Notes: a model not told the origin generated them from the letters alone. DNA of 39,474 nucleotides from Bacteroidota bacterium (GCA_027490225.1 JAIXYK010000014.1:1-39474), one strand, 5' to 3'; shown: positions 18,247 to 38,114, counted from the first letter of the stretch. Program-made: numbers and translations.

Positions 18247-19176
18247 ATGACAGATTTCAAAAAACCTGCAGAAGCGCCCATTTGGAAGGTTATTCTGGCA
18301 TTTGGCATTATTTACATTGTTTGGGGAAGCACTTATTATTACATTCAGGAAGCTGTAAAAGGATTTCCACCATTTATTTTGGGAATGTTGCGCTTTTTAA
18401 TTGCTGGTGGATTAATGATGAGTTGGGCTATTTACAGAAAAGAAAAGCCTTTTCAGTTGTCGTATATACTTCCTGCTGCGGTTTGTGGATTTTTATTGTT
18501 GAATGTAGGGAATGGTTCTGTTATTTGGATTGAACAAAGTGTAGCCAGCGGAATTGTGGCTGTGATGCTATCATCTGGTCCTTTGTGGTTTGTGTTGTTT
18601 GATTACCCGAAATGGAAAAGCAATTTCACAAACGGATACATCATTACAGGCTTGCTGATTGGTTTCGCGGGAATTGTATTGCTTTTCTGGGAGCATATTC
18701 AACAGCAACAAGCACTTTCACAGGAAATACCCATTTTAACTTTATTTCTGCTCCTCCTCGCCCCTGCTTCATGGTCGATGGGTTCTTTATATTCAAAATA
18801 CAAAACTGGAAAAACGCCTGCAACGGTTAATATCAGTTGGCAAATGATTGTTGCTGGACTTATTTTTGTGCCCGCAACATTTATTCACAACGAATGGACA
18901 GGATTTAACTGGAGCACCATTTCGGGAGCTTCTTGGTTTGCACTTTGGTACTTGGTAATAATGGGTTCTATCATAGGTTTCAGCGCCTTTGTATGGTTGC
19001 TGAGCGTAAGGCCTGCAGCACAAGTGAGCACGAATGCTTATGTAAATCCTGTAGTTGCGGTTTTAATTGGAGTTTTTATTGGAAACGAGCATGTTTCGGC
19101 CACACAGATTATTGGTTTGTTGGTAGTATTGGGAAGTGTGGCTTTGATAAATGTGGGGAGCAATCGGGGGAAGTGA
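18247..19176 (+). CDS. EamA family (DMT superfamily) transporter
   Basis: A 309-residue protein with ten predicted membrane helices in two EamA repeats. The first repeat carries IYIVWGSTYYYIQEAVKGFPPF, typical of YedA/RhtA-like exporters, and the second ends in the VNPVVAVLIGVFIGNE pattern, a family hallmark. It is likely an inner-membrane exporter of amino acids or other metabolites; the substrate is unknown. The ATG follows the DUF721 stop with no gap, so it may be cotranscribed with recF. The stop is immediately followed by a purine-rich repeat tract. Confidence 0.9.
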   Translation: MTDFKKPAEAPIWKVILAFGIIYIVWGSTYYYIQEAVKGFPPFILGMLRFLIAGGLMMSWAIYRKEKPFQLSYILPAAVCGFLLLNVGNGSVIWIEQSVASGIVAVMLSSGPLWFVLFDYPKWKSNFTNGYIITGLLIGFAGIVLLFWEHIQQQQALSQEIPILTLFLLLLAPASWSMGSLYSKYKTGKTPATVNISWQMIVAGLIFVPATFIHNEWTGFNWSTISGASWFALWYLVIMGSIIGFSAFVWLLSVRPAAQVSTNAYVNPVVAVLIGVFIGNEHVSATQIIGLLVVLGSVALINVGSNRGK

Positions 19177-19241
19177 AAAGTTGAAAGTTAAAAGTATAAA
19201 GGGGAAAGTTGTCAATGCCTAAATAACGTTGACTGTTTTTT
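19174..19241 (+). repeat. AAGTT/AAGTAT purine tract followed by a TTGTCAATGC element
   Basis: After the transporter stop come repeated AAAGTTGAAAGTTAAAAGTATAAAG-like words, then a 33-base element (19209-19241) beginning TTGTCAATGCCTAAATAACG and ending in six T residues. A close relative of the second element is at 37826-37856. The GTCAA/TTGAC arms with the T-run could act as a weak terminator for the plus-strand operon. Confidence 0.55.
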
Positions 19242-19268
19242 CACTTCACTTTTTACATTTAACTTCAT

Positions 19269-21389
19269 TTAATCTTTAATGCAACGAATTGAAATTCCAT
19301 TTCGTTTATTATAGTCGACTCTGGTTACATTTCCATTAAGATAATTCATGGATCTTAACCATGCATTATCTGTTAAGAGAAAATATTCTGTAGAGCTCCA
19401 AAAGTTACCAAAGTAACCAGCATTTATGAAATTAGCATCGATGTTACTAAAGATACCACCAGGGAGTGCTGAAAAACCACTTTCATTGGTGGCTAAACTA
19501 TTTGATAAACCCCAACCATTAACAGTCTTCATCTTTACTCCTTGTCCAATTGCACCTAAATAATCTCTAAGAATTATCCATTCAGCATCAGTTGGTACAT
19601 GCCATCCTGTAGGGCAAACATTTCTTGAATCAACAGTTGTAAACCAATTGTACAATTTACCATAAATTGAATCATTAGTCACACTATTATTGTAATTGCA
19701 CCATGCAGGTGTAGTTAATTGGTTCCATGCTAAGTTAGTAGTAACATTGGGAATCTCCGAACCGTCAGTAAAATGAGCTGTTTTTAAATTTTCAGCCATC
19801 CACCATTGATCTCCGATTAATACAGTTTCGTAAATATTTCCATCTACATCTGCAACCGCACCAAACATAGTTGAGCAGGTAGTAATATTTTCAGCATTTG
19901 CTCCCGTGCTATCGACTTGTAATGTTATCATTTCACTCACTTTGATAGAATCAAGATTGGTGATATTATAACCACGAATAACATACTCGCCCAATGAACA
20001 AGTTTGAATGTTAAATGAACCGTATTGAGTAATAAAAATCTGAGGTCCCATTTTAACATAGCCTGAATCAACTGGTTGTCCAACGCAGTTTAAAACAGTT
20101 CCTGCAATTGGATATCGCCCACTTAAACTTGCTGTAATTAAATTGTTGAGAGGTTGTGTTGAACTAGCAATTGTTTCGGTATGTGCCAATGCCCAATCAT
20201 TTGTCGAGCTACAAGTTAGATTTACATTTAATGTTAAATTTTGGTTTTTAGGAACTCTGCAGGTAAATGTACCTTCTGCATTTGTATAAATAACTCCTGT
20301 ACCTAAAGTTGGAGAAATCACATTTATCTGCGCATCTGAAACTGGAGTTCCGCCAACAGTATTTACAGCACCATGAAAATCGTTGAAATTTTCTGGTCTA
20401 TCACAATTCCACCAAGAAAAGTGACTTGCTGCGCCAATGTATTGTGTTCCTTGTTTTTGAGCTTCGCCTTCGTGTTTCCAATAACCGAGGAGTTCGTCGA
20501 AGCTCCACCAGTCGATAGTTGCTGGAGCTTCGGCTTGCAAGTCCGTTGGAATGTTGAAGGTCAAAGTAGCGGAAACACCGTTTGCCAAATGGAGTTCATT
20601 CATGTTGTCATCTCTGAGTTCTATGGATGCCATACCAAATGAGCGCAATAATCTTAAAGAATCATTCATTCCACCCAATAATTCACCTGGCATTTGGTCG
20701 TACATAATAGGTGAAGTTGGGTCTAAGGCGGCTGCAAATACACGAACAGTTCCAGAGTATGGTTGTCCGTTAAGTTGAATGGCATTGGCAGGAAAAGTAA
20801 GTTGTAACAATCCTGAAGTTACCGTACCGCCTGCCATAGCGCTAAATGTACCCGATTGGGTCATGGTTAAGAGTTGCACATTTACGCGGTTGCTGCCACT
20901 TTCTAAAGGTAAAAAGCTGCGAGAAGCTTGGTGGAAACCCGGTTTGGTGATGCTGATGTACCCAAGTTTGTCGTACACCATAATGTTGTTGAGGAAGAAT
21001 ACGCCATTTGGGTCTGTGCGGGTTTCTTCGCCGCCGTATGGAGAACGCACAATGGCATTCATTTCAGGAGCGCCGGTTGGTCCTCGCACCACGCCCATTA
21101 CACTGGCAGTGCGCAGGTTGCCTAATTGTGAAGGATCGAGCGCAGTTCCATCGGTATGGGTAATGCTATCAATTTGCACAACAGGAATTTGACTCACAAA
21201 ACCGTTGAACTGAATTACCCGCATAGTGCGCTGCCCATCGATTTCGGCAGTTTCTACCTTATCAATTAAAGCAGTAGGAATGCGCAATACAGGTAAGTTG
21301 TGGCGATAGATGTTTTTGAGGGTTTGGGCGGGGAGCTGTGTAAATAATGCCAAGCCAATAAGAACGAGAAAGTGTAATTTTTTCAGCAT
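19269..21389 (-). CDS. secreted FISUMP-domain protein, array paralogue 1
   Basis: A 706-residue exported protein with a signal peptide (cleavage near LPA|Q, residue 21). Domains in order: a constant N-terminal module (about 22-95, ending in PVVQIDSITHTDGTALDP), a carboxypeptidase-regulatory-like sandwich (about 100-165), a CILP/ZU5-like region (about 175-320, with DQMPGELLGGMNDSLRLL and ASHFSWWNCD), further regulatory-like sandwiches (about 325-480), and a FISUMP domain (about 510-706) with the motifs WWMAENLKTA, YGKLYNWF, CPTGWHVPTDAEW and FWSSTE, ending SIRCIKD. FISUMP (Fibrobacter succinogenes major paralogous domain) is a C-lectin-like fold of unknown ligand. No T9SS sorting domain is present. 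The Met at 21389 is preferred over a TTG 6 nt upstream. Confidence 0.9.
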   Translation of the reverse strand: MLKKLHFLVLIGLALFTQLPAQTLKNIYRHNLPVLRIPTALIDKVETAEIDGQRTMRVIQFNGFVSQIPVVQIDSITHTDGTALDPSQLGNLRTASVMGVVRGPTGAPEMNAIVRSPYGGEETRTDPNGVFFLNNIMVYDKLGYISITKPGFHQASRSFLPLESGSNRVNVQLLTMTQSGTFSAMAGGTVTSGLLQLTFPANAIQLNGQPYSGTVRVFAAALDPTSPIMYDQMPGELLGGMNDSLRLLRSFGMASIELRDDNMNELHLANGVSATLTFNIPTDLQAEAPATIDWWSFDELLGYWKHEGEAQKQGTQYIGAASHFSWWNCDRPENFNDFHGAVNTVGGTPVSDAQINVISPTLGTGVIYTNAEGTFTCRVPKNQNLTLNVNLTCSSTNDWALAHTETIASSTQPLNNLITASLSGRYPIAGTVLNCVGQPVDSGYVKMGPQIFITQYGSFNIQTCSLGEYVIRGYNITNLDSIKVSEMITLQVDSTGANAENITTCSTMFGAVADVDGNIYETVLIGDQWWMAENLKTAHFTDGSEIPNVTTNLAWNQLTTPAWCNYNNSVTNDSIYGKLYNWFTTVDSRNVCPTGWHVPTDAEWIILRDYLGAIGQGVKMKTVNGWGLSNSLATNESGFSALPGGIFSNIDANFINAGYFGNFWSSTEYFLLTDNAWLRSMNYLNGNVTRVDYNKRNGISIRCIKD

Positions 21390-21453
21390 TATCAAGATAT
21401 TTTTAAAATTATTTTTTAAGCTAAAAGTAGAATAAATTCCTTTTAAATTGTGG

Positions 21454-21756
21454 TTATCGTTTCCATTTTGCAGGATTGAGCGATGTATGAAGAACCGCTC
21501 TTACAACAAAATTAAAATTTGGCTCATTTAAGGTATAATGTATCATATAAGGGAATTTCTTCATTGGTAAACATAATACTTCATCGTATCTAACTGCATA
21601 AAATGGAGATTTTTCTAAAGATAAAAATAGCTTGTTTAAAGCTTGTTCGAATTTTATTCCCAAACCAGATTGTTCATTTTCATAATAATCAATAGCATCT
21701 TGAATATCAATCAATGCATCTGGCTCTAATATAATTTCAAACTTATGCTCACTCAT
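21454..21756 (-). CDS. RelE/ParE family toxin
   Basis: A 100-residue protein with the RelE/ParE pattern: strand 1 FEIILEPDALIDIQDAIDYY, helices, then the C-terminal sheet with KFPYMIHYTLNE and VVRAVLHTSLNPAKW. The family includes ribosome-dependent mRNA endonucleases (RelE) and gyrase inhibitors (ParE); the VVRAVLHTSLNP ending resembles the ParE-like plasmid stabilisation group, but the target cannot be fixed from sequence. Its ATG overlaps the end of the antitoxin gene by 8 nt, the usual layout of a type II module. It lies between paralogue 1 and a truncated relic of the same family. Confidence 0.88.
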   Translation of the reverse strand: MSEHKFEIILEPDALIDIQDAIDYYENEQSGLGIKFEQALNKLFLSLEKSPFYAVRYDEVLCLPMKKFPYMIHYTLNEPNFNFVVRAVLHTSLNPAKWKR

Positions 21757-21955
21757 TTTTAAAATGAAGCTGTTTTCTTGCTGCTTTCCATGAAATTAGT
21801 TCTTCAGGCTTACTTTTTTTTATTCGCTCTCTTACTAAGTCTTTATGATCTTCAGGAATATTCTGCTCTTCCTCAATTGAAAAGCCAAGCTTCTCAACTA
21901 ATTGTTTAAAAAAAACCAATTGTTCATTTGGAAGCTTGATTGTAATTTGTTTCAT
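21749..21955 (-). CDS. antitoxin of the RelE/ParE module
   Basis: A 68-residue protein directly upstream of the toxin, overlapping it by 8 nt. The N terminus MKQITIKLPNEQLVFFKQLV looks like a ribbon-helix-helix strand-helix start, followed by an acidic then Lys/Arg-rich tail (SKPEELISWKAARKQLHF) of the kind that wraps the toxin. The module would be autoregulated by the antitoxin through DNA binding. It is identified mainly by size, position and pattern, not by a strong family match. Confidence 0.8.
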   Translation of the reverse strand: MKQITIKLPNEQLVFFKQLVEKLGFSIEEEQNIPEDHKDLVRERIKKSKPEELISWKAARKQLHFKNE

Positions 21956-22006
21956 AGAAAAAGATTAATCTTCAAATTTAAAAAATTATTGATGTCTTTA
22001 TTTCAA

Positions 22007-22216
22007 TTATAGTAAATTTTGATTAGTCTTTAAATATTGAATTACCTGCAAGGTGCGCTGACCGTCAATTTCGGCAGTTTCGACTTTATCAATAAAAGAA
22101 GTAGGAATGCGCAAAACCGGCAGGTTGTGGCGGTAGATGTTCTTAAGAGTTTGGGCGTCAACCTGCAGCCCCATGATTATCATGATAAATCCAAGAAAAA
22201 GTATGTGTTTTTTCAA
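22007..22216 (-). pseudogene. truncated 5' stub of a FISUMP-array paralogue (relic A)
   Basis: This stretch encodes a signal peptide and the first part of the constant module, with AQTLKNIYRHNLPVLRIP and IDKVETAEIDGQ matching all four full-length paralogues, then loses homology after about residue 61 (QVIQ) and stops within nine codons. The ATG expected at the start is TTG, unlike relic B where the same position is ATG. Both facts argue for a dead remnant. Its downstream end faces the toxin-antitoxin pair, so the break may mark an insertion or deletion event. Confidence 0.8.
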
Positions 22217-22265
22217 GTTTAATTTGATTTGAAAATACCTTTCAACTTTTCACTTTCATCTAAAC

Positions 22266-24416
22266 TCAATTCCTCACGCAACGAACTGAAAATCCGGCTC
22301 GCTTATTCATATCATCCCGATAAATATCTCCAGAAGTGTGATTCAGGAAGCGGGTATAAACCCAATCTGCATCGATTTCTGTAGATGTCCAAAATAAAGC
22401 AGCAGTATTCAAATTGTAAGAGTATTGATTCCAATAGTTGCGGTAGCCTCCTGGCAAAGCAGAAAATCCCGTCTCGTTGGTTGCATCCGTGTTTGGCGCA
22501 CTCCAGCCAGTTACAGATTTCAATTTACCGCCGACAATGTGGCTTTGCACTTCGCCAAGCGTATCGGGAAAATACAAAGGGTCTATAAAACCAATCATGG
22601 TATTCCACTCTGCGTCAGAAGGCACATGCCATCCAGCTGGACATAAATTTCGGGTATCAACCGTAGCGTACCACTTGTAAAGCTTTCCGTATACTTGGCC
22701 TGAGTTAATACTGTTGTTATAATAGCACCAGGCACCAGAGGTCGATGCCATCCAAGCGGTATTGTCGGTTAAATTTGGAATTGAGTCGCCATTGGCATAA
22801 AATGCAGTTCTCAGATTTTGGGCCATCCACTCTTGATTACCGATGAGCACCGTGGTGTAATTATTTCCTTCGATATCTGCAACAGCTCCCAGAAAAAGAG
22901 AACACGCTTGTAAGGCTCCTGCCTCTGCTCCTGAAGGACCTACTTGAATTGAATACAAAGCACTGGATCTAACAGAATCAGGAATGGAAGTGTCGTAACC
23001 TTGAAGAAAAAAATCTCCTTGCGTGCAACTTGGAATGAGAAAATCAGCCCCATCGGTTAAGAAAATTTGGAAGCCTCGTTTCACATAACCAGATTCAACA
23101 GGTTGTCCTGCACAATTCACCACTTGGCCCGTTATTGGAAAATATCCAGTTAATTGAACCGTGAATGTGTCTAAAATTGAATCGACTCCACTTGCAATGT
23201 TTTCTGTATATACAACTGCCCATGCATTTATTGTATCGCAAACAAGGTGAATATTCATGGTCAACAATTGGTTTTTAGGCACTCTGCCACTGAACTCTCC
23301 TGCGGAATTGGTGTAGGTAATTGAGGTACCTAATGTTGGGGAAAACACTTCGATCATCGCCTCCGAAACAGGATTTCCTTGGGTTGAATAAACCGTGCCG
23401 TGAAATTCATTGAACGTTGATGGTAAATCAAGGTTCCACCAAGAAAAGTGACTGGCTAAGCCAACGTAATCATTATTTTGTTTCTGGGCTACACCTTCAT
23501 GAATCCAATAACCTAAATTTTCATCAAAGCTCCACCAGTCGATGCTTGCAGGGGCCTCGGCTTGAAGTTCTGAAGGAATATCGAAAATGAGCGTTGCCGA
23601 AAAACCCGGACGTAATTGCAATTCATTCATATTGGCATCGCGCAATTCGATACTTGCCATTCCGAAGGAGCGCAAGAAACGAATAGAATCGTTTATGCCA
23701 CCCAAAAGCTCTCCTGGCATTTGGTCGAACATCGAAGTGGAGCTGGGATTTAAAGCCTGGGCAAACACCCGAACAGAGCCTGTATATGGTTGTCCGTTGA
23801 GTTGGATGGCATTGGAAGGAAAGTTCAATTGAAGCAATCCTGAAAAAACCGTTCCGCCTGTTTTTGCGTTGAAAGTGCCTGACTGCGTCATCGGCAAGAG
23901 TTGCACATTTACGCGATTACTACCAGTATCTAAAGGCAAAAAGCTGCGAGAACCTTTGTGGAAACCAGGGCGTTCTATTGTTACAAACCCTTGTTTTTCG
24001 TAAACCAAAATATCGTTCAGCAAAAATACCCCATTAGGGTCCGTGCGGGTTTCTTCTCCACCAAAAGGAGAACGCACCAAGGCATTGAAAACCGGAGCAT
24101 TGTTTTGATCTCGCACCACACCAACTAAACTTGCTGTTCTCAATTGCCCAAGTTGTGCAGGATTGATTGCTGTTCCATCTGTATGGGTGATGCTGTCTAT
24201 CTGAGAAACTGGCACTTCATTAACAAAACCATCAAACTGTAAAACATGCATTACTTTTTGTCCATCTAAATCAATAGTTTCAACTTTGTCGATTAAGGCA
24301 ATAGGAATGCGCAATACCGGCTGATTATGACGGTAAATGTTTTTAAGGGTTTGGGCTTGAAACTGAAACCCCAACGCCATGAATAAAAACCCAAGAAGGA
24401 ATAAACTCTTTTTCAT
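22266..24416 (-). CDS. secreted FISUMP-domain protein, array paralogue 2
   Basis: A 716-residue member of the array with the same domain order as paralogue 1: signal peptide (cleavage near FQA|Q), constant N-terminal module, regulatory-like sandwich (RTDPNGVFLLNDI), CILP/ZU5-like region, second sandwich (AGEFSGRVPKNQ) and a C-terminal FISUMP domain (EWMAQNLRTAFYANGD, CPAGWHVPSDAEW, LFWTSTE, ending SVRCVRN). It is the most divergent copy in its constant region, with changes such as GQKVMHVLQFDGFVNEVPV. The FISUMP domain carries a longer insertion after WHVPSDAEW than paralogue 1. It has no T9SS domain; the location is probably periplasmic or outer surface. Function unknown. Confidence 0.9.
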   Translation of the reverse strand: MKKSLFLLGFLFMALGFQFQAQTLKNIYRHNQPVLRIPIALIDKVETIDLDGQKVMHVLQFDGFVNEVPVSQIDSITHTDGTAINPAQLGQLRTASLVGVVRDQNNAPVFNALVRSPFGGEETRTDPNGVFLLNDILVYEKQGFVTIERPGFHKGSRSFLPLDTGSNRVNVQLLPMTQSGTFNAKTGGTVFSGLLQLNFPSNAIQLNGQPYTGSVRVFAQALNPSSTSMFDQMPGELLGGINDSIRFLRSFGMASIELRDANMNELQLRPGFSATLIFDIPSELQAEAPASIDWWSFDENLGYWIHEGVAQKQNNDYVGLASHFSWWNLDLPSTFNEFHGTVYSTQGNPVSEAMIEVFSPTLGTSITYTNSAGEFSGRVPKNQLLTMNIHLVCDTINAWAVVYTENIASGVDSILDTFTVQLTGYFPITGQVVNCAGQPVESGYVKRGFQIFLTDGADFLIPSCTQGDFFLQGYDTSIPDSVRSSALYSIQVGPSGAEAGALQACSLFLGAVADIEGNNYTTVLIGNQEWMAQNLRTAFYANGDSIPNLTDNTAWMASTSGAWCYYNNSINSGQVYGKLYKWYATVDTRNLCPAGWHVPSDAEWNTMIGFIDPLYFPDTLGEVQSHIVGGKLKSVTGWSAPNTDATNETGFSALPGGYRNYWNQYSYNLNTAALFWTSTEIDADWVYTRFLNHTSGDIYRDDMNKRAGFSVRCVRN

Positions 24417-24450
24417 TTATAGTTAGATTTATACTTGCAAACAAAATTCA

Positions 24451-24504
24451 CTTTTAACTCAATACTTTCCCTTTTTTACTTTTAACTTTATACTTTATAC
24501 TCCC
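24451..24504. repeat. pyrimidine-rich ACTTT tract left of paralogue 3
   Basis: Between paralogues 2 and 3 the plus strand reads a run of CTTTTAACTC, CTTTATAC and ACTTTATACTCCCC-like words up to the stop codon of paralogue 3. It is the reverse complement in kind of the AAGT tract at 26640-26738, which lies just upstream of the same gene. The two therefore bracket paralogue 3 as inverted repeats. Confidence 0.6.
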
Positions 24505-26622
24505 CTAATCCTTCATACAACGAACAGACGCCCCTGAATTGACACTAAAATTTGTCATTCTATTAATTGCTCCACTATTGTAATTAATGAGTCTAAACCA
24601 AGGAGCTGCTGGACCGTTTAGCGTGGAACTCCACCAATTACCGTTGTTGTTTATTAAATAAAATGTACCATACCCATCACGGTGTCCTCCAGGTTTACCT
24701 GTGAATCCGCTTTCATTGGTTGCCAATGCATTTGGAGGAGTCCATCCAGTTAAGGCCTTCATTTTACCTCCAGCAATGGTTTGTCCGCCCAATGAATCAG
24801 CTAAAGCTGTCCATTCAGCATCCGTAGGGACATGCCAACCGGCAGGACACAAACCACTGGTGTCTGAAACGCAATACCAGTTATACAATTTTCCAAAAGT
24901 ATTCTCATAGGTTGGATTATGCTGAAAGTGGCACCAAGCAGGAATTGTATCTGTCCAAGAAGCGTTAGCAACTAAGTTAGAAATCACCGAACCATTTCTA
25001 AAATGAGCAGTTTTTAAATTTTCGGCCATAATCCAGCGCCCACCAATAAGCACTGTAGAATAGATGTTTCCATCTATATCGCTTACAGTTCCATAAACTT
25101 CTTCGCACACCTCTATACTTCCAGCATTGGCTCCAGTATTTTCAACGTTTATTGATAAATACTCGCTAACACGAACCGAATCAGGATTTGATGCATCGAA
25201 ACCGCGAATGTTATTTTCACCTAATGTGCATGTGAGATAAGAAAAAGCTCCTGATGAATCAGCCGAATAAATTTGGCTTCCCATTCTTACATAACCAGCT
25301 GTAACAGGTTGGCCTTGACAGTTTAACAGTGTTCCCGAAATGGGATAGTAACCAGTTAGACTGGCAGTATACGTTTCAATAATTGGGTCAATGCCACTTG
25401 AAATAGTTTGGGAATAAGCCAAAGTCCAATCGCTAGCTGTATAGCAAGTTAGATAAATTTCAAGATTTAGACTTTCATTCTTTGGAACCCTGCAGTTAAA
25501 CTCACCAAATGCATTGGTATAAACAACACCAGTACCCATGGTAGGTGAAATAAACCTTATTTGCGCATTTGAAATAGGGTTTCCATCTTCTGAATTTACT
25601 GTTCCACTGTAATTTACAAAATCAGCCGGCACATCGCAATTCCACCAAGAAAAGTGACTTGCTGAACCGATGTACTGTGTGCCTTGTTTTTGCGCTTGTC
25701 CTTCGAGTTTCCAATATCCAAGTACTTCGTCAAAACTCCATAAATCAATCACATCAGGAGAATTGGCTTGTAAGGAAGTTGGAATCGTAAAACGCATGGT
25801 TGCTGAAACGCCCGTAGCCAATTGAAGTTGCTGCAAATCATACGTACGCAGTTCAATAGCTGCCATTCCAAAAGAGCGCAACAAACGCAAAGAATCGTTC
25901 ATACCACCGAGTAATTCGCCGGGCATTTGGTTAAACATCCTATTGGACGTAACATCCAGCGCTTTTGCATACACTATAACTTGTCCTGTATACGACTGAC
26001 CATTTAGCTGGATGGAATTTGGCGGGAATGTCAATTGCAAAGAACCTGCATTCACAACTCCACCATTAGCATTTACAAAGAATCCTGCAGAAACCATTGG
26101 CATTAACTCAACATTAACCTGATTTAGAGATTCTTCATTTGGCAAAAAACTTCGCGAACCTTGGTAATATCCGGGCTTTTCTATGGTGATATACCCTAAA
26201 TTATCGTAAACAACAATATTGTTAAGGTAAAAAACACCATTGGCATCGGTGCGGGTTTCTTCTCCTCCGTAAGGTGAACGCACAATAGCCATGTTAATGG
26301 GTGCATTGCCTGTATCACGCACCACGCCCATCACACTCGCTGTGCGTAGGTTTCCCAATTGTGCTGGATCGAGCGCAGTTCCGTCGGTATGGGTAATGCT
26401 ATCTATTTGCGCAACCGGAATCTGGCTCACAAAACCATTTAACTGAATTACCCGCAAAGTCCGCTGACCGTCGATTTCGGCAGTTTCTACCTTATCAATT
26501 AAAGCAGTGGGAATGCGTAATACTGGCAGGTTGTGGCGGTAGATGTTTTTGAGGGTTTGGGCGGGGAGTTCTGCGAAAATACTCAAACAGATTAGGAGTA
26601 TTGTGGCGGTGAGGTTTTTCAT
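24505..26622 (-). CDS. secreted FISUMP-domain protein, array paralogue 3
   Basis: A 705-residue member. The signal peptide MKNLTATILLICLSIFAELP is almost identical to that of paralogue 4. The constant module and first sandwich are close to paralogues 1 and 4, then similarity falls steadily towards the C terminus. The FISUMP domain shows WIMAENLKTAHFRNGSVI, CPAGWHVPTDAEW, WWSSTLNG and an ending ASVRCMKD that lacks the usual basic NKR segment. The Met at 26622 is preferred: the frame is open for 48 nt more, but that part translates the repeat tract and is not homologous to the other copies. Function unknown. Confidence 0.9.
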   Translation of the reverse strand: MKNLTATILLICLSIFAELPAQTLKNIYRHNLPVLRIPTALIDKVETAEIDGQRTLRVIQLNGFVSQIPVAQIDSITHTDGTALDPAQLGNLRTASVMGVVRDTGNAPINMAIVRSPYGGEETRTDANGVFYLNNIVVYDNLGYITIEKPGYYQGSRSFLPNEESLNQVNVELMPMVSAGFFVNANGGVVNAGSLQLTFPPNSIQLNGQSYTGQVIVYAKALDVTSNRMFNQMPGELLGGMNDSLRLLRSFGMAAIELRTYDLQQLQLATGVSATMRFTIPTSLQANSPDVIDLWSFDEVLGYWKLEGQAQKQGTQYIGSASHFSWWNCDVPADFVNYSGTVNSEDGNPISNAQIRFISPTMGTGVVYTNAFGEFNCRVPKNESLNLEIYLTCYTASDWTLAYSQTISSGIDPIIETYTASLTGYYPISGTLLNCQGQPVTAGYVRMGSQIYSADSSGAFSYLTCTLGENNIRGFDASNPDSVRVSEYLSINVENTGANAGSIEVCEEVYGTVSDIDGNIYSTVLIGGRWIMAENLKTAHFRNGSVISNLVANASWTDTIPAWCHFQHNPTYENTFGKLYNWYCVSDTSGLCPAGWHVPTDAEWTALADSLGGQTIAGGKMKALTGWTPPNALATNESGFTGKPGGHRDGYGTFYLINNNGNWWSSTLNGPAAPWFRLINYNSGAINRMTNFSVNSGASVRCMKD

Positions 26623-26639
26623 GGGCTTTATGTTAGTAT

Positions 26640-26738
26640 AAAGTTGAAAGTAGAAAGTAGAAAGGGGCAAGTTGGGAGTATAAAGTTAAAAGTATAAAGT
26701 TAAAAGGAGGAGATCTTTGGGAAGTTGAAAGTGTTGAT
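26640..26738. repeat. purine-rich AAGTT/AAGTAT tract right of paralogue 3
   Basis: Repeated GAAAGTAGAAAGTAG and AGTATAAAGTTAAAAGTATA words lie upstream of paralogue 3, starting about 17 bases before its ATG. They are inverted relative to the tract at 24451-24504 and the same in orientation as the tract upstream of paralogue 4. Confidence 0.6.
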
Positions 26739-26756
26739 TTCAATTAAGTGTATAGT

Positions 26757-26855
26757 TTATCTTGTCTTACAAAACTGCTTGTTTAGCGTTTGCGGGTCTA
26801 ATCTCAAATCCAGGATCATCAATAGAAACCAAAGAAATAGTATGTGTTTTTTCAT
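26757..26855 (-). pseudogene. 32-codon stub of a FISUMP-array paralogue (relic B)
   Basis: An ATG-led frame encodes MKKHILFLWFLLMILDLRL, then DPQTLN and a stop after 32 residues. It matches the signal peptide of relic A (MKKHILFLGFIMIIMGLQV, AQTLKN), and the 30 or so bases upstream of the start are also nearly the same in the two relics (TTTAATTTGATTTGAAA on the plus strand). It is therefore the 5' end of a former paralogue, cut even shorter than relic A. The rest of the 345-base gap between paralogues 3 and 4 is low-complexity repeat. Confidence 0.75.
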
Positions 26856-26873
26856 GTTTAATTTGATTTGAAA

Positions 26874-26966
26874 CTCACTTTCAACTTTTTACTTTATTCT
26901 TTTCACTTGATATTTTTTACTTTCAACTTTATACTTTGAACTCAATACCGTTTACTTTTTACTCCA
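26874..26966. repeat. pyrimidine-rich ACTTT tract left of paralogue 4
   Basis: The plus strand reads CTTTCAACTTTTTACTTTAT, then TTTACTTTCAACTTTATACT and more up to the stop of paralogue 4. It mirrors the purine tract at 29131-29252 on the other side of that gene. Confidence 0.6.
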
Positions 26967-26967
26967 T

Positions 26968-29118
26968 TTAATCCATGATACAACGGACAGAATAACCACT
27001 ATTCTTATAATTTGAAGACCTACTTGATGCTGGAGTTGATATAAACAGAGAGCGAAACCAAGCTTTTGTAGTAACACTAGACTCTGTAGAGCTCCACCAG
27101 TAGCCTTCGCTACCAACTCCGTAAAATAGTCCATTTTGATGGCTTCGAGTACCACCAGGGAGACCTGAAAAACCAGTTTCGTTATTAGCCCCAAAATTTT
27201 CCGAACCCCAGCCTGTAATCGATTTCATTTTCCCTCCTGCAATGTTACTTTGGACACCACTATTTGATGGATTGTAAGCAGGATGAATAAAGCCAATTAG
27301 GGTATTCCATTCCTCATCTGTCGGAACATGCCAATTCGTAGGGCAAACATTGCGCGGATCAGCTACAGCAAACCAATTATACAACTTGCCATATAAGGTA
27401 TCATTAATTGTATTGTTTGAATAGTTAGACCATGCCGGAGTAGTTATCTGAGTCCAACCGCTATTAATTGTTACATTTTGAATTTGTGAACCCTCGGAAA
27501 ATGTTTCTGTTTTAAGGTTCTCTGCCATCCATTTTTGGCTCCCTATTATAACTGTTGTATAAATGTTACCATCAATGTCCGCAACAATCCCATAAATTTC
27601 TGAACAAGCTTCAATATTTCCTATTTCAATACCATCATTATCTACAAAAACAGAATTTAAAGTACTTACTTTAACTGAATCTGGAATAGAGGTATCAAAA
27701 CCTTGAATTTGGTAATTACCTGTAGAGCAAGTTTGAATAGTAAACTCTCCATTTTCAGTAATAAATATCTGAGACCCAATTTTTACATATCCAATTGCAA
27801 CAGGCTGTCCTGAACAATTTACAACAGTTCCCGAAATAGGATAATAATTACTTATTTCGGCCGTATAAGATCCGACTATTGAATCTTGTTCGCTGGTAAT
27901 TGTTTCAGAATGCGCTAAAACCCAATCATTAGTGCTGTTACATGTGAGATTTACATTTAAAGTTAAACTTTGGTCTTGAGGAACTCTGCAAGTGAATGTT
28001 CCATCGGAATTGGTATAAATAGTTCCTGAGCCCAATGTTTGAGAAATAATTTTAATCTGTGCATCTGAAATTGGGCTGCCGCTAGAAGTGTTTACTACAC
28101 CTTGAAAATTATTGTAGTATTGAGGTATATCCCAATTCCACCAAGAAAAATGACTTGCTAAGCCAACATATTTATTTCCTTGTCGTTGCGCTACCCCTTC
28201 GTGTTTCCAATAGCCAAGCGTTTCGTCAAAGCTCCACCAGTCGATAGTTGCTGGCGCATCGGCTTGCAAAGTGGTTGGAATGTTAAATTTAAGTGTAGCG
28301 GATTGTCCATTTGCCAATTGCAATTCGTTCATGCTGGCATCACGAAGTTCTATAGACGCCATTCCAAATGAGCGGAGTAAACGCAAAGAATCGTTCATAC
28401 CTCCTAACAATTCACCAGGCATTTGGTCGAACATTTCGGGTGCTGTTGGGTCTAAAGCTTGGGCATAAACATTTACAGTTCCTGTGTAAGGTTGTCCGTT
28501 AAGTTGAATGGAATTTGCAGGAAATGTAAGTTGCAATGATCCTGAAGTAACCGTTCCACCTGCTGTTGCTATGAATGTACCCGATTGGGTCATAGTTAAG
28601 AGTTGCACATTTACCCGATTGCTGCCTGTTTCGAGTGGTAAAAAGCTGCGCGAACCTTGGTGGAATCCCGGTTTGGTAATGGTGATGTAACCAAGTTTGT
28701 CGTACACCAAAATGTTATTCAAGAAAAATACACCATTTGCGTCGGTGTGGGTTTCTTCTCCACCGTAAAGAGAACGTACTATTGCATTCATTACTAAAGC
28801 GCCGGTTGGACCACGCACCACGCCCATAACACTTGCTGTGCGCAGGTTGCCCAATTGTGCTGGATCGAGCGCGGTTCCATCAGTATGAGTAATGCTATCA
28901 ATCAGTGCAACTGGAATTTGACTCACAAAACCGTTGAACTGAATTACCCGCAAAGTGCGCTGACCGTCGATATCGGCAGTTTCTACTTTATCAATTAAAG
29001 CGGTAGGAATGCGCAATACCGGCAGGTTGTGGCGGTAGATGTTTTTGATGGTTTGGGCGGGGAGCTCTGCGAAAATGCTCAAACAGATTAGGAGTATTGT
29101 GGCGGAAAGGTTTTTCAT
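26968..29118 (-). CDS. secreted FISUMP-domain protein, array paralogue 4
   Basis: A 716-residue member with a signal peptide cleaved near LPA|Q (residue 22). By eye the first 114 mature residues differ from paralogue 1 at only about 11 positions, and the nucleotide sequence there is also nearly the same. The middle CILP/ZU5-like region (DQMPGELLGGMNDSLRLL, ASHFSWWNWD) is likewise close. The FISUMP domain (WMAENLKTETFSEGSQI, CPTNWHVPTDEEW, YWWSSTESS, ending SVRCIMD) is much more different, including a longer insertion after WHVPTDEEW shared in style with paralogue 2. It is the first gene of the array in transcription order. The Met at 29118 is preferred over an earlier start 9 nt upstream. Confidence 0.9.
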   Translation of the reverse strand: MKNLSATILLICLSIFAELPAQTIKNIYRHNLPVLRIPTALIDKVETADIDGQRTLRVIQFNGFVSQIPVALIDSITHTDGTALDPAQLGNLRTASVMGVVRGPTGALVMNAIVRSLYGGEETHTDANGVFFLNNILVYDKLGYITITKPGFHQGSRSFLPLETGSNRVNVQLLTMTQSGTFIATAGGTVTSGSLQLTFPANSIQLNGQPYTGTVNVYAQALDPTAPEMFDQMPGELLGGMNDSLRLLRSFGMASIELRDASMNELQLANGQSATLKFNIPTTLQADAPATIDWWSFDETLGYWKHEGVAQRQGNKYVGLASHFSWWNWDIPQYYNNFQGVVNTSSGSPISDAQIKIISQTLGSGTIYTNSDGTFTCRVPQDQSLTLNVNLTCNSTNDWVLAHSETITSEQDSIVGSYTAEISNYYPISGTVVNCSGQPVAIGYVKIGSQIFITENGEFTIQTCSTGNYQIQGFDTSIPDSVKVSTLNSVFVDNDGIEIGNIEACSEIYGIVADIDGNIYTTVIIGSQKWMAENLKTETFSEGSQIQNVTINSGWTQITTPAWSNYSNNTINDTLYGKLYNWFAVADPRNVCPTNWHVPTDEEWNTLIGFIHPAYNPSNSGVQSNIAGGKMKSITGWGSENFGANNETGFSGLPGGTRSHQNGLFYGVGSEGYWWSSTESSVTTKAWFRSLFISTPASSRSSNYKNSGYSVRCIMD

Positions 29119-29130
29119 GGGCTTCACTTT

Positions 29131-29252
29131 AGTAGAAAGTTAAAAGTAGAAAGTATAAAGGGGAAAGGGGAAAGGGAAAAGGAGAAAGGAGAAAGGGGCA
29201 AGTTGAAAGTATAAAGTTAAAAGTATAAAGTTGAAAGGAGGAGAGTTAAAGG
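29131..29252. repeat. purine-rich tract between paralogue 4 and the four-helix-bundle gene
   Basis: About 120 bases of almost pure A/G with interspersed T: GTAGAAAGTTAAAAGTAGAA, then GGGGAAAGGGAAAAGGAGAA, then AAGTATAAAGTTAAAAGTAT. It overlaps the last codons of the four-helix-bundle gene. It is the longest and most G-rich of the tracts. Confidence 0.7.
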
Positions 29253-29632
29253 GAAGTTTTTAGGTTTTTAAGGGAGATTTTTGGGGGTGATATTGATTTG
29301 ATTAGGCCGGAGATTATTTTGGAGACTTCTTCTGCTAAAGCGATTAGCTCTTTTTGTTTTTCGTCAGAGATTTTGTTGAGTTCTTTGGCTAAAATTAACA
29401 TGGAACGTACTTCTCCGCAGGAGCCTTTGGATACGTAGAGAAAATATGCAAATTCTTTGATACCTTTTCTTTCAAAACCCTCAGCAATATTGTTCATTAT
29501 GGAAACTGCAGCTCTTGAAATTTGATCTTTAAAACCTAAGTCCTTGCTACTTTCAAAAACCTTATAAATCTCCACACACAAGAGTTTCGCCTTTTGCCAC
29601 GCAATTGCATCCTCAAATCTTTCTATCCGCAT
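29246..29632 (-). CDS. four-helix-bundle protein (23S rRNA intervening-sequence protein family)
   Basis: A 128-residue protein of the four-helix-bundle family originally described from 23S rRNA intervening sequences. Family marks are RFEDAIAWQKAKLLCVEIYK near the N terminus, FKDQISRAAVSIMNNIAEGF in helix 2, and FAYFLYVSKGSCGEVRSMLI in helix 3. No rRNA is present here; stand-alone copies are common in Bacteroidetes and behave like small mobile or cassette genes. Its C terminus (SPPKISLKNLKTSL) runs into the repeat tract and may be partly encoded by it. It is bracketed by the tracts at 29131-29252 and 29677-29709. Cellular role unknown. Confidence 0.88.
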   Translation of the reverse strand: MRIERFEDAIAWQKAKLLCVEIYKVFESSKDLGFKDQISRAAVSIMNNIAEGFERKGIKEFAYFLYVSKGSCGEVRSMLILAKELNKISDEKQKELIALAEEVSKIISGLIKSISPPKISLKNLKTSL

Positions 29633-29676
29633 AAGATTTCTAAATGTTAAATAATGCCTTTTCCTTTACACCGAAA

Positions 29677-29709
29677 GTACTTTCAACTTTATACTTTCAA
29701 CTTTTAACT
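29677..29709. repeat. pyrimidine-rich ACTTT tract right of the four-helix-bundle gene
   Basis: A short ACTTTCAACTTTATACTTTC-type run just downstream of the small T9SS protein gene. It is inverted relative to 29131-29252 on the other side of the four-helix-bundle gene. A perfect palindrome GAAAGTACTTTC (29673-29684) sits at its edge. Confidence 0.55.
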
Positions 29710-29712
29710 AGC

Positions 29713-30219
29713 TTATCGTTTCATAAAAGCCTTCGAAATCACCATATCACCCGCCATAAGCGTACAGAAATATTGACCTGTTGCAAGGTTGTTTAATGCC
29801 AAAGTTACTTTGCCTTCTTTGCTTGGTGTTAGTTGTTTTACCAATACTTTTTCGCCTTTTAAATTGTGAATGGTTACGCTTAGGTTTTGCGTAGCATAAG
29901 GCAAGTCATATTTTAAATTAAGTTCTTGCTCGGCAGGATTTGGGTAAAAAGTAAGTGTTGGACGATTGTTAAGCTCAGCAACATTGGTAACGTCTTCTGC
30001 AAAATAACGGTAATAGTTCAATGTATTGAGCTCGAAGGTAACAATGCTTTCATCAATTAAATGCAGGGTTAAATTGGTAGCATCTACATTCATTCTGCGC
30101 ACTTCTGCAATGGAATACATTTGCACGGAAGCATCGTTAAAATAAAAGAACAATTGTTGTGAGTTTGCTTTGATGGCAACTGTAGCAAAAAACAGGATAG
30201 AAAGGAAACGTAGAAGCAT
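29713..30219 (-). CDS. small T9SS type A sorting-domain protein
   Basis: A 168-residue protein: signal peptide (cleavage near ANS|Q, residue 20), a short beta-rich module (about 21-75, VQMYSIAEVRRMNVDATN and LTLHLIDESIVTFELNTL) of the kind seen at the start of many exported Bacteroidetes proteins, and a T9SS type A sorting domain (about 88-168). The latter shows LTFYPNPAEQELNLKYDL, VTIHNLKGEKV, LATGQYFCTLMAG and a basic end SKAFMKR. It should be exported by the Sec system and then secreted or surface-attached through T9SS. There is no catalytic domain, so it may be a structural or decoy surface protein; function unknown. Confidence 0.88.
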   Translation of the reverse strand: MLLRFLSILFFATVAIKANSQQLFFYFNDASVQMYSIAEVRRMNVDATNLTLHLIDESIVTFELNTLNYYRYFAEDVTNVAELNNRPTLTFYPNPAEQELNLKYDLPYATQNLSVTIHNLKGEKVLVKQLTPSKEGKVTLALNNLATGQYFCTLMAGDMVISKAFMKR

Positions 30220-30304
30220 AGTATAAACTTTTTAACTTTTTAGGCTATAAATATATAAAATAAACTTAATGACGGGTAATTTGAAAATTTATTTTTGAAA
30301 CGTG

Positions 30305-30412
30305 CAGCCCGCGCCCGGGATGGAGCGGCCTGTTTGAGCTCTTTTAAATTGCCTTGGGTTTTTATCCAAGGTAATTTAAAAAGCGAGTAGCGACAGCCCG
30401 TAAGGCGCCCAA
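30305..30412 (+). ncRNA. GC-rich structured intergenic element (possible Flavo-1-like RNA)
   Basis: This GC-rich block stands out in an AT-rich gap of 322 bases. It contains a 15-bp stem (TTTAAATTGCCTTGG with CCAAGGTAATTTAAA, one G-U pair, 8-nt loop) between conserved-looking flanks CCCGGGATGGAGCGG and AGCGACAGCCCGTAAGGCGCC. The layout resembles a widespread Bacteroidetes intergenic element, possibly the Flavo-1 RNA motif, but the match is from memory and unverified. The 3' half recurs at 33842-33882. The strand is assigned by the orientation of the AGCCCGnAAGGCGC end. Confidence 0.45.
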
Positions 30413-30492
30413 AAAATATAAATGCTTCAAAAAAGAGGATTTATCTGAGTGGATTCTTAAAAAAATCTTTTGAAAAAAGTATATAAAAAACC

Positions 30493-30523
30493 TTTGAAAG
30501 ACAATTATAAATCCTTAGGTTTG
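30493..30523 (+). promoter_or_regulatory. complete Bacteroidetes promoter for the 1067-aa T9SS gene
   Basis: TTTG at 30493-30496, 19 bases, then TAGGTTTG at 30516-30523 matches the TTTG-N19-TAnnTTTG consensus exactly. The start codon at 30542 lies 18 nt after the box. This decides the start: the upstream in-frame TTG at 30470 would place the promoter inside the gene. Confidence 0.7.
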
Positions 30524-30541
30524 ATTTATAAATCTAACGCT

Positions 30542-33500
30542 ATGCATTCTATTCTACGTTTCTCCATTTTTAGTATGTGTTTGATGTTTCTAAACATTTT
30601 GTCGGTAAAGGCACAATGGGAACAAATTACTTCGTTTCAGGGCGGTAATCCTACTGTTTCAATTACTGAGTCTGCGAATAAGCTGATTGGCATAGGCCAA
30701 AAAGGGCTTTATCTGGCTGATAAAACTACGCGGATCTGGCAAGAAGTTCCGCTGTTTAATCAAATAACGATGTATTCTGTTGCGGCTAAGAATGACACCT
30801 TGTTTGTGGTTCACCAAGGCTTTGATATTTTTGCAAGACTCTATTTAAGTGCCAGTTATGACGAAGGAAATACTTGGGAAACACCTTGGTTTCTTGCTAA
30901 CGGTTGGGGAGCTAGCCCTAAAGTGGCTTTCGTAAACCAACAAATAATTGTAGCTGGGTACATGGACAACCTCGATTGCCTAAGAAAATCGTCAGATTAT
31001 GGTCAAACATGGATTACTGAGGTTTACCCTCCGGGATTTGAAGTTATACCGAAAGTGCTGGATGTAAATGAAACGCATATTCTTTACCATGTTGCAAATT
31101 CAATAGATACCAGCGATGTATACAGTTACGATGTTGCTTCGGGAAGCTGGCATGCAATTCCAAATACATCAGAAACGTATAATGAACCTGGTGCTCAAAT
31201 TTTTAACAACCGGATTTACGCAAAGGCAGAAACGAGCAGTTCATTTACTATTTATTCAACTGCATTGGATGGAAGCGATGTTCAAATGTTATATTCAGAT
31301 ACTAATGTTTATGGAAACTACGGTTTTTTTGAAAGCAATGGACAAATGGTCTTGATTTTTGATGATCCTTTAACGCCATTTGGTGCGGTTGATTTTTACA
31401 TTTCAACAGACACTGCCCAAACGTTTACGTATCAAAATACATTTACAATACCCTACACAATGGATATTTTCTTGGGGATTTGGCCTTTGGAATCGGGAGA
31501 ATTGATTGTTGGAGGAGAAAGGTTACACATATTACCAAGCGATTACCAATCGTATGAGGAAATTACAGATGGATTTATTGTAAAAAATGTGGTTTGTGTT
31601 ACTTCTGTTAACAATACCCTCTATGCTTCTGCAAATGTTACTGCATTTGGAAAATCGGAGGACAATGGTTTGAGTTTCGAAGATATTTCTGCGGAGAATA
31701 AATATCCCATGGGAGGTATACTCCATCAGGGAGATACTATCTTTTATGAATCGGGTGATAATCAAACGTATTACAGGTTTTACAGGTCATATGATAATGG
31801 GCTAACGTATGAGAGCTTCCCGTTTGGTGGGCCAGATTTATCATATAGCCTTAGTAATCAAAAATCTGCTTTTTTGAATAATAAGATATATACCATTTTT
31901 GGAGAATCTATTGATATTCCTGTTCTCTTGATGAGTGATGATTTTGGAGAAACATGGTCAACCATTCAGTGTCCAACAGTATGGCCGGGAATACTGCATG
32001 TTGCAAATGGCTCTCTTTATTTATACGCGGAAGATCTTTACCGATTTAATGAACAAAATAACACCTGGACAAACCTTAATTCGCCACTAGAGAATAGCCT
32101 AATTACGAGTAATTATGATAGGAAATTGCGCACTATTGGAAATAATCTTTGGATGGTGAACAACGAAAATGAAAGTGTAATTTTACTTTCGGATGGAGTA
32201 ACATGGATAAATACTGGAATTCCATTATACGATGTGGCTCAGGTTGGAAACATTGTTTACGGGTTGAGTGATACCATGATGTATGCTTCTGCAGATTATG
32301 GCGAAACTTGGCAATCAACCGGTGTTCCAGTTCCTCCGGGCATGAATACAAAAATGGTCAATCACCTATCTGAACTCTTTGTTTATGGTGGATATAACAC
32401 ATCGATTTGGAAAATTGCAGCACCTCAATTTGTTTCAGGCTTGGTTTATTACGACAACAATGGAAATGGCAATTACGACAACGGTGAACCGGGTGTTCCT
32501 GAGATATTGATTCATTCAGAAAATTCTGAAACCTATGCTATGTCAGGACCAACAGGCAGTTTTATCTTGAGTTACTCTGGCGAAGAAGACCAGATTACTG
32601 TTGAAGTAAACAATGTAAATTATATGGCAGATCCTTCGAGCATTACAGTAAATGGCATTGAAGAAATATTCATTGGTATAAAAATTATTGGAACCGTTTC
32701 TGATTTAACAACAGACGCTGTTTTGAATACTCCATTCAGACCAGGTTTTTCTACCGGTGTTTCGCTGATGGTGAGAAATTTAGGGAATGTTGAACAAGGC
32801 GGAGAATTAACTTTTACGTTACCAGAAAACGTTAGTTTTACAACTGCTTCGGTTGCTCCAACAAGCCAAACAGCAAATGTTTTAAGCTGGACGATTGGCG
32901 AATTAGCTACTTTTGAAATGCAGCATATTCAAGTAGAATTGCTTACAAATGTTTCGGCTGTTTTAGGAGATACAGCAACCTTTGTAGTAAATATTAATTC
33001 TACTGTAACGGATGATAACTTGGCGAATAACTCGGTTACAAACGAATCGATTATTGTGGGTTCTTACGACCCGAACGATAAGGCTTGTTCGCGTGGAGAG
33101 ATCCTCACTCCTACTCAACTCAGCATCTCTAACGAATTTGAATACCTGATTAGGTTCCAAAATACTGGAACTTATTACGCCGAAAATGTGGTGATTAAAG
33201 ATACGATTAGTTCATATTTTGATTTAGCGACTTTGCGGATTATTGGTGCAAGCGATACGATGCATGTTACATTTGATGACGGCCAATTGGTGAATTTTAA
33301 TTTCCCGAATATTTTCCTGCTTGATTCTACCACGAATGAACCTCTTAGTCATGGATTTGTGAAATATGCCATTCGCTTAAAACCGGGTTTAGAATTGGGA
33401 AGCGTAATTCAAAATACTGCTTATATTTATTTTGATTTTAATGCACCAATTATAACAAATACTGCAGAAACGGTATTTGACTTACCAAGCGGTTTGGATT

Positions 33501-37871: not shown

Positions 37872-38011
37872 ACTTTTATAATGTCACCACTTCGTGGTTT
37901 TCTTTTCGTTGTTTATACTTATAATGCTTCTCAAATTTCCCCTTTCAACTTTATACTTTCCACTTTTAACTTTTATAATGTCACCACTTCGTGGTTTTCT
38001 TTTCGTTGTTT
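37872..38011 (+). repeat. pair of perfect 43-bp direct repeats with internal hairpin
   Basis: Copies at 37872-37914 and 37969-38011 are identical by eye. Each contains ACCACTTCGTGGT, a 5-bp stem with a 3-nt loop, and ends TCTTTTCGTTGTTT. They are 97 bases apart start to start and lie in a pyrimidine-rich tract. Similar ACCACGAAGTGGT words are common in Bacteroidetes intergenic DNA as far as I recall. Confidence 0.85.
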
Positions 38012-38114
38012 CGCCTTTCCCTTTTCAAACTTTACACTTTACACTTTGTACTTTACACTTTGTACTTTATACTTTTAACTTTCCACTTTGTACTTTCTAC
38101 TTTATACTTTCTAC
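38012..38114. repeat. ACTTT low-complexity tract after the helicase gene
   Basis: About 100 bases of repeated TTTACACTTTGTACT, CTTTATACTTTTAACTTT and CTTTCTACT words reaching the helicase stop codon. On the coding strand it is purine-rich, like the tracts downstream of the EamA, paralogue 3, paralogue 4 and small T9SS genes. Confidence 0.65.

Follow-up and report, generated by a model that had tools for sequence, protein, structure and literature searches.

Proteins with a C-terminal FISUMP (Fib_succ_major) domain have been described as secreted and present in many copies per genome, for example in 'Candidatus Ornithobacterium hominis', in which FISUMP sets were never completely identical between two samples (PMC6421346). 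Fib_succ_major is also a reported target domain of diversity-generating retroelements (DGRs), and HHsearch links FISUMP to DUF1566, the variable regions of which may have the C-type-lectin-like structure of TvpA (PMC4159848). Separately, self-cleavage is established in the ZU5/GAIN(GPS)/Nup98 superfamily, where PIDD self-cleaves at HF/S directly after each ZU5 domain and CARD8 and NLRP1, which carry the FIIND, cleave at SF/S with the serine required (PMC3210808), and autoproteolytic ZU5 domains joined to diverse adhesion or enzymatic modules have been proposed for bacterial surface proteins and polymorphic toxins (Zhang et al. 2012, PMC3482391). Here, we describe a tandem array of four secreted FISUMP paralogues, F1 to F4, on the minus strand of a 39,474-nucleotide stretch of a Bacteroidota bacterium (GCA_027490225.1, JAIXYK010000014.1:1-39474; hereafter the window, with positions counted from its first letter). 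Like the described FISUMP proteins, these are secreted, end in FISUMP, and are numerous, but they form one syntenic tandem array with a common conserved front and demonstrable exchange of segments. We consider it probable that they represent a self-cleaving constant base with exchangeable recognition heads, in an old, recombining birth-and-death array.

Under this reading, the base (N-module, transthyretin/CarboxypepD_reg-like domain, and ZU5-like domain) is kept by purifying selection, and gene conversion or unequal exchange has spread its sequence from copy to copy. The distal part (second CarboxypepD_reg-like domain, immunoglobulin (Ig)-like domain, and C-terminal FISUMP head) diverges fast and can be swapped as segments, and the array as a whole evolves by birth and death together with recombination. 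The ZU5-like domain would cut itself at HF/S, and the heads would be extracellular binding modules differing in specificity.

The four genes (705-716 codons) lie head to tail in the transcription order F1, F2, F3, F4. Each product starts with a signal peptide and a short N-module, continues with CarboxypepD_reg, a ZU5-like mid region, and another CarboxypepD_reg-like domain, and ends in FISUMP (Table 1). In all four paralogues, this terminal domain matched both PF09603 (E 1e-39 to 1e-43, 136-149 bits, curated cut-off 33.9) and TIGR02145 (102-125 bits, curated cut-off 41.65). Two 5' relics between the genes, psi1 and psi2, had escaped an earlier sequence-only reading of the window; counting them, no fewer than six full or partial copies have existed in the array. 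That reading had described four head-to-tail paralogues with constant fronts and variable FISUMP ends and had argued that their divergence was not uniform, and both descriptions were borne out by gene calls and sliding-window alignment. Amino acid identity between F1 and F4 was 0.82-0.92 over residues 30 to ~240 and 0.34-0.38 past residue 660 (i.e., from ~0.9 to ~0.36), and steps were seen even at synonymous sites. Its "nearly fixed" N-terminal part, however, needs two corrections: the front of F3 is just ~73% identical to those of the other paralogues, with synonymous sites near saturation in every segment, and the near-identical front of F2 is limited to its first ~97 residues. F2 is a mosaic in which these ~97 N-terminal residues and the 5' leader are of F1 type and the rest belongs to a divergent lineage, such that F1-F2 identity was 0.95 in the first 90 residues, next ~0.6-0.7, and finally ~0.4. 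The F1-F4 change point fell at residue 329 (95% interval 305-350), where the split explained 0.121 of the variance and permutations reached at most 0.025. It was again 329 (interval 321-344) for a core set of six genes from the array and relatives, and was 337 for six genes of relatives.

What is new here is that this constant/variable step coincides with an HF-S motif at the end of the ZU5-like domain, since residue 329 falls just behind the motif. The predicted structure of F4, mostly confident over residues ~90-510, contains a transthyretin-like domain (95-178) and a ZU5-like domain (~175-333), the latter matching ankyrin ZU5 over 129 residues (amino acids 175-333; Z 9.6, root-mean-square deviation 3.4), and HFS (323-325) sits between its last two strands (316-321 and 326-333). 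Conservation of the motif was assessed with a profile ending before it in 198 genomes of the phylum, superseding an earlier count (26/26) that was biased because its search pattern contained SHFSWWN. Each of the 21 distinct matches below E 1e-30, which came from 14 genomes (six matches from the window's own genome and 15 from 13 others), had H-F-[S/T]-x-W-N, and the weaker, more distant matches of the same search did not; among the strong matches, H and F were invariant and the possible nucleophile position held serine or threonine only. The likeness to PIDD and to the FIIND of CARD8/NLRP1 thus comprises a ZU5-like beta sandwich ending in HF-S, a serine or threonine as possible nucleophile, and a motif between the last two model strands, but the array proteins are bacterial and secreted, have no death domain, and have a predicted cleavage site. 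Taken together, motif, model, and analogy suggest that the ZU5-like domain self-cleaves at HF/S, leaving base and head as two non-covalently held chains.

An alternative to which we assign an appreciable, though minority, probability is that F1-F4 are stalk-and-head adhesins or extracellular (e.g., polysaccharide) binding proteins without self-cleavage, in which the HFS turn is purely structural. Their beta-sandwich stalk does resemble pilin and adhesin shafts, and TIGR02145 has been catalogued among putative cellulose-binding or cohesin-like domains (PMC4704652). Yet replacement of serine by threonine alone, with H and F invariant phylum-wide, is what self-cleavage would require and is harder to explain by packing alone.

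Elsewhere in the phylum, the same front was joined to other tails, including leucine-rich repeats (LRRs; L144, L162, L153), regions with weak beta-propeller matches (L145, L146, L147), and Ig-like regions, and most of these relatives (11 of 12 by eye) had a lipobox-like cysteine, unlike F1-F4. Tandem pairs repeated the gradient in G142 (LRR tails; front 83%, tail 43%) and G214 (front 84%, tail 66%); a non-tandem pair from two genomes (L150/L151) was 86% identical in both front and tail, with no gradient. Tentatively, there may be a phylum-wide secreted or lipid-anchored family in which a self-cleaving ZU5-like base (HF/S or HF/T) is the socket for FISUMP, LRR, and propeller-like heads, in a layout like that of GAIN/ZU5 receptors, with recombination in the array bringing heads and bases into new combinations close to the cleavage boundary. 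If HF/S is cut, the constant/variable boundary would be tied to specific, testable chemistry, and a cleavage module familiar mainly from animal signalling proteins would be widely used in free-living Bacteroidota as the constant base for binding heads. As a side observation, the Pfam model FAM171A1-2-B_N was matched by the bacterial front in 24 of 27 members of set A2 (best E 1e-7), and a teneurin TTR (transthyretin) model was matched by some of the members (FAM171/teneurin-type matches are listed for L142, L146, L147, and L167), hinting that the ectodomain of animal FAM171 proteins has a layout in common with this front.

The array itself is old. Comparison across related genera of the same family revealed a syntenic tandem array of variable copy number with pseudogenes, the marks of birth-and-death evolution; for example, contig C11 of G002 carries seven copies, of which two are fully intact, one is open only from ~residue 240 onward, and the others are broken by stops or frameshifts. 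Copy numbers in relatives are lower bounds, as several contigs end inside arrays.

We found two causes of the gradient: stronger purifying constraint on the front, and recombination. For the former, segment B (residues 98-180) was 86-96% identical between genera among F1, F4, and the relatives' genes G002b, G006a, G007a, G008a, and G008c, and the C-terminal FISUMP domains of the same genes were mostly 45-59% identical; because the same gradient separates copies of different genera, much of it reflects constraint on the front. For the G006a-G007a pair, nonsynonymous and synonymous differences (pN/pS) of 0.02/0.42 were obtained for segment A, compared with 0.17/0.47 for FISUMP, and the head is thus several-fold less constrained than the front. 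The ratio of nonsynonymous to synonymous divergence (dN/dS) climbs along the gene, and none of the comparisons, most of them near saturation in the tails, gave evidence of positive selection.

It is nonetheless unlikely that domain-specific constraint after old duplications explains the gradient alone, with exchange unneeded. The recurrence of the gradient between genera and the near-saturation of F3 against all other copies would fit such an account, but three lines of evidence oppose it. First, synonymous contrasts (third positions at codons with unchanged amino acid) step along the genes: F1-F4 differed by 0.27 in the front (segments A+B) versus 0.47 in the tail (D+E; p=0.001), and for F1-F2 the difference was 0.54 outside segment A, compared with 0.29 within it (p=0.0006). 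Second, DNA trees of different domains conflict in approximately unbiased (AU) tests: F1+F2 was supported (92/91) in segment A and rejected in BC (AU p=0.009), and G006a+G007a were sisters in segment A and rejected in D (AU p=0.005), where G007a+G008a received 100/100. Third, the pairwise homoplasy index (PHI) test was significant, with p=0.003 on the window's own four genes and p<0.001 on a set of ten. Sliding identity of G006a-G007a switches near residues 330 and 530, and G007a-G008a identity reaches 99% in the middle of the exchanged segment and 74-85% in its other parts, the latter being unlike the product of a simple assembly chimera. A run test on all sites was also significant for F1-F2 (p=0.0002); Sawyer-type runs on silent sites alone were mostly non-significant (F1-F4 only, p=0.019), protein-level AU tests mostly gave no clear outcome, and our recombination call rests on the synonymous contrasts, PHI, and AU tests in preference to silent-site runs.

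The sequence-only reading had proposed 5' duplication or gene conversion combined with faster change, or replacement, of the 3' module. Exchange among copies is indeed detectable, divergence is not uniform, and neither agreeing domain trees nor identical orthologues were found, copy number itself being variable; the share of front constraint in the gradient, on the other hand, was not part of that proposal, and replacement was demonstrated for middle segment D in relatives (G007a against G006a and G008a), with no demonstrated case for a FISUMP tail within the window. Array tails were 45-54% identical to each other versus 33-55% to FISUMP domains outside the array, so that replacement and divergence to a floor are indistinguishable by distance, and the tails may have diverged down to the family's floor instead of being replaced. 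Capture of tails from other loci was considered and found no support: the array tails are no nearer to any specific FISUMP domain from outside than to one another, and the FISUMP tree lacked resolution.

A polymorphic-toxin-like system, with a constant delivery front and a variable C-terminal effector, appears highly doubtful: a constant front, a variable tail, and ZU5-family processing have all been described for polymorphic toxins (PMC3482391), but the array tails held FISUMP alone by Pfam and NCBIfam and those of relatives FISUMP, LRR, or propeller-like regions, none being a toxin domain, and no immunity-type gene was recognised between copies. The bacterial surface proteins with proposed autoproteolytic ZU5 domains resemble the present family in joining such a domain to diverse modules, but those described mostly carry RHS repeats and toxin domains. 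As in the C-type-lectin-fold variable proteins of DGRs (Mtd, TvpA, and Fib_succ_major targets), variability is concentrated in a C-terminal lectin-like domain, but here this known target of DGRs has diversified in the absence of one, through duplication, point change, and recombination of segments. Rewriting of FISUMP tails from a template repeat by a DGR is extremely improbable, and a local DGR is rejected as the source, since, for all that Fib_succ_major is a reported target and variability peaks in the C-terminal ~60 residues, the window's genome (estimated 100% complete) has no RVT_1 match to a reverse transcriptase, only one was found among ten genomes of the family (L117, 1105-2310 of G008:C105, on a contig other than those of the arrays), and the variation covers the whole distal half and includes indels. 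Within 18900-31000, the only repeats were paralogue copies and heptads, with no dedicated genome-wide template-repeat search made.

Several points weigh against the self-cleaving base with exchangeable heads. HF/S cleavage is a prediction, and residue 329 is also an ordinary domain boundary, so that its coincidence with the motif is not in itself proof that cleavage plays a part. The array proteins gave no Pfam ZU5 match, and ankyrin ZU5 is a structural match of moderate quality. For the heads, the FISUMP model is of low confidence (predicted local distance difference test score 53.5), such that the lectin-like fold rests on the literature, and neither by fold nor by sequence did the PDB yield a significant match to FISUMP. 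F1-F4 have no lipobox and, by Pfam and NCBIfam, no type IX secretion system (T9SS) C-terminal sorting domain (Por_Secre_tail), so that surface display of the array proteins is hypothetical; a surface-recognition role, with ligand binding by the heads, is plausible. Finally, the species is represented by one genome, the family's relatives are metagenome-assembled genomes in which chimeric assembly is possible, and near-saturation of synonymous divergence in the tails makes tail age and positive selection unmeasurable.

Table 1. Features of the array and its surroundings (window positions; aa, amino acids; ORF, open reading frame)
Feature	Position	Strand	Remark
F4 paralogue	19269..21389	-	706 aa
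F3 paralogue	22266..24416	-	716 aa; most divergent front
F2 paralogue	24505..26622	-	705 aa; mosaic
F1 paralogue	26968..29118	-	716 aa; first gene of the array
FISUMP (Fib_succ_major) domain of F4	19275..19823	-	
FISUMP domain of F3	22272..22850	-	
FISUMP domain of F2	24511..25053	-	
FISUMP domain of F1	26977..27552	-	
HFSWWN of F4	20406..20423	-	
HFSWWN of F3	23433..23450	-	
HFSWWN of F2	25639..25656	-	
HFSWWN of F1	28135..28152	-	aa 323-328, end of ZU5-like domain; predicted HF/S self-cleavage site (PMC3210808)
psi2, truncated extra copy	22034..22213	-	signal peptide and start of front, ~60 codons; followed by ParE-like toxin-antitoxin module
psi1, relic of another copy's signal peptide	~26784..26855	-	24 codons
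ParE/RelE-like toxin ORF	21454..21756	-	weak match
Antitoxin-like ORF	~21749-21955		upstream of toxin ORF
Four-helix-bundle (23S IVP family) ORF	29246..29632	-	between T9SS-tail protein and F1
Small secreted protein with T9SS C-terminal sorting domain	29713..30219	-	upstream of array
(AAAGTNN)n repeats	19166-19209, 24447-24502, 26626-26727, 26874-26971, 29118-29260, 29679-29715, 37940-38100		

Around the array, the small T9SS-tail protein also precedes the arrays of G002, G006, G007, and G008. Two of these four relatives, G006 and G007, have the IVP-family ORF in syntenic position as well, at 73-79% identity. Inverted heptad arms (30 nt, 90% complementary) flank this ORF at 29208-29709; a mobile unit made of the ORF and inverted heptads was considered and rejected, as there was no general association and the window's genome has only two IVP genes. 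The position of the ParE/RelE-like module (21454-21955) directly after psi2 suggests that it was inserted into, or replaced, that copy. Degenerate tandem heptads, (AAAGTNN)n, occupy almost all intergenic gaps of the array and could promote slippage or recombination; genome-wide, a 25-base pattern of the repeat had 147 matches, several at contig ends, and its reversed control had 0.

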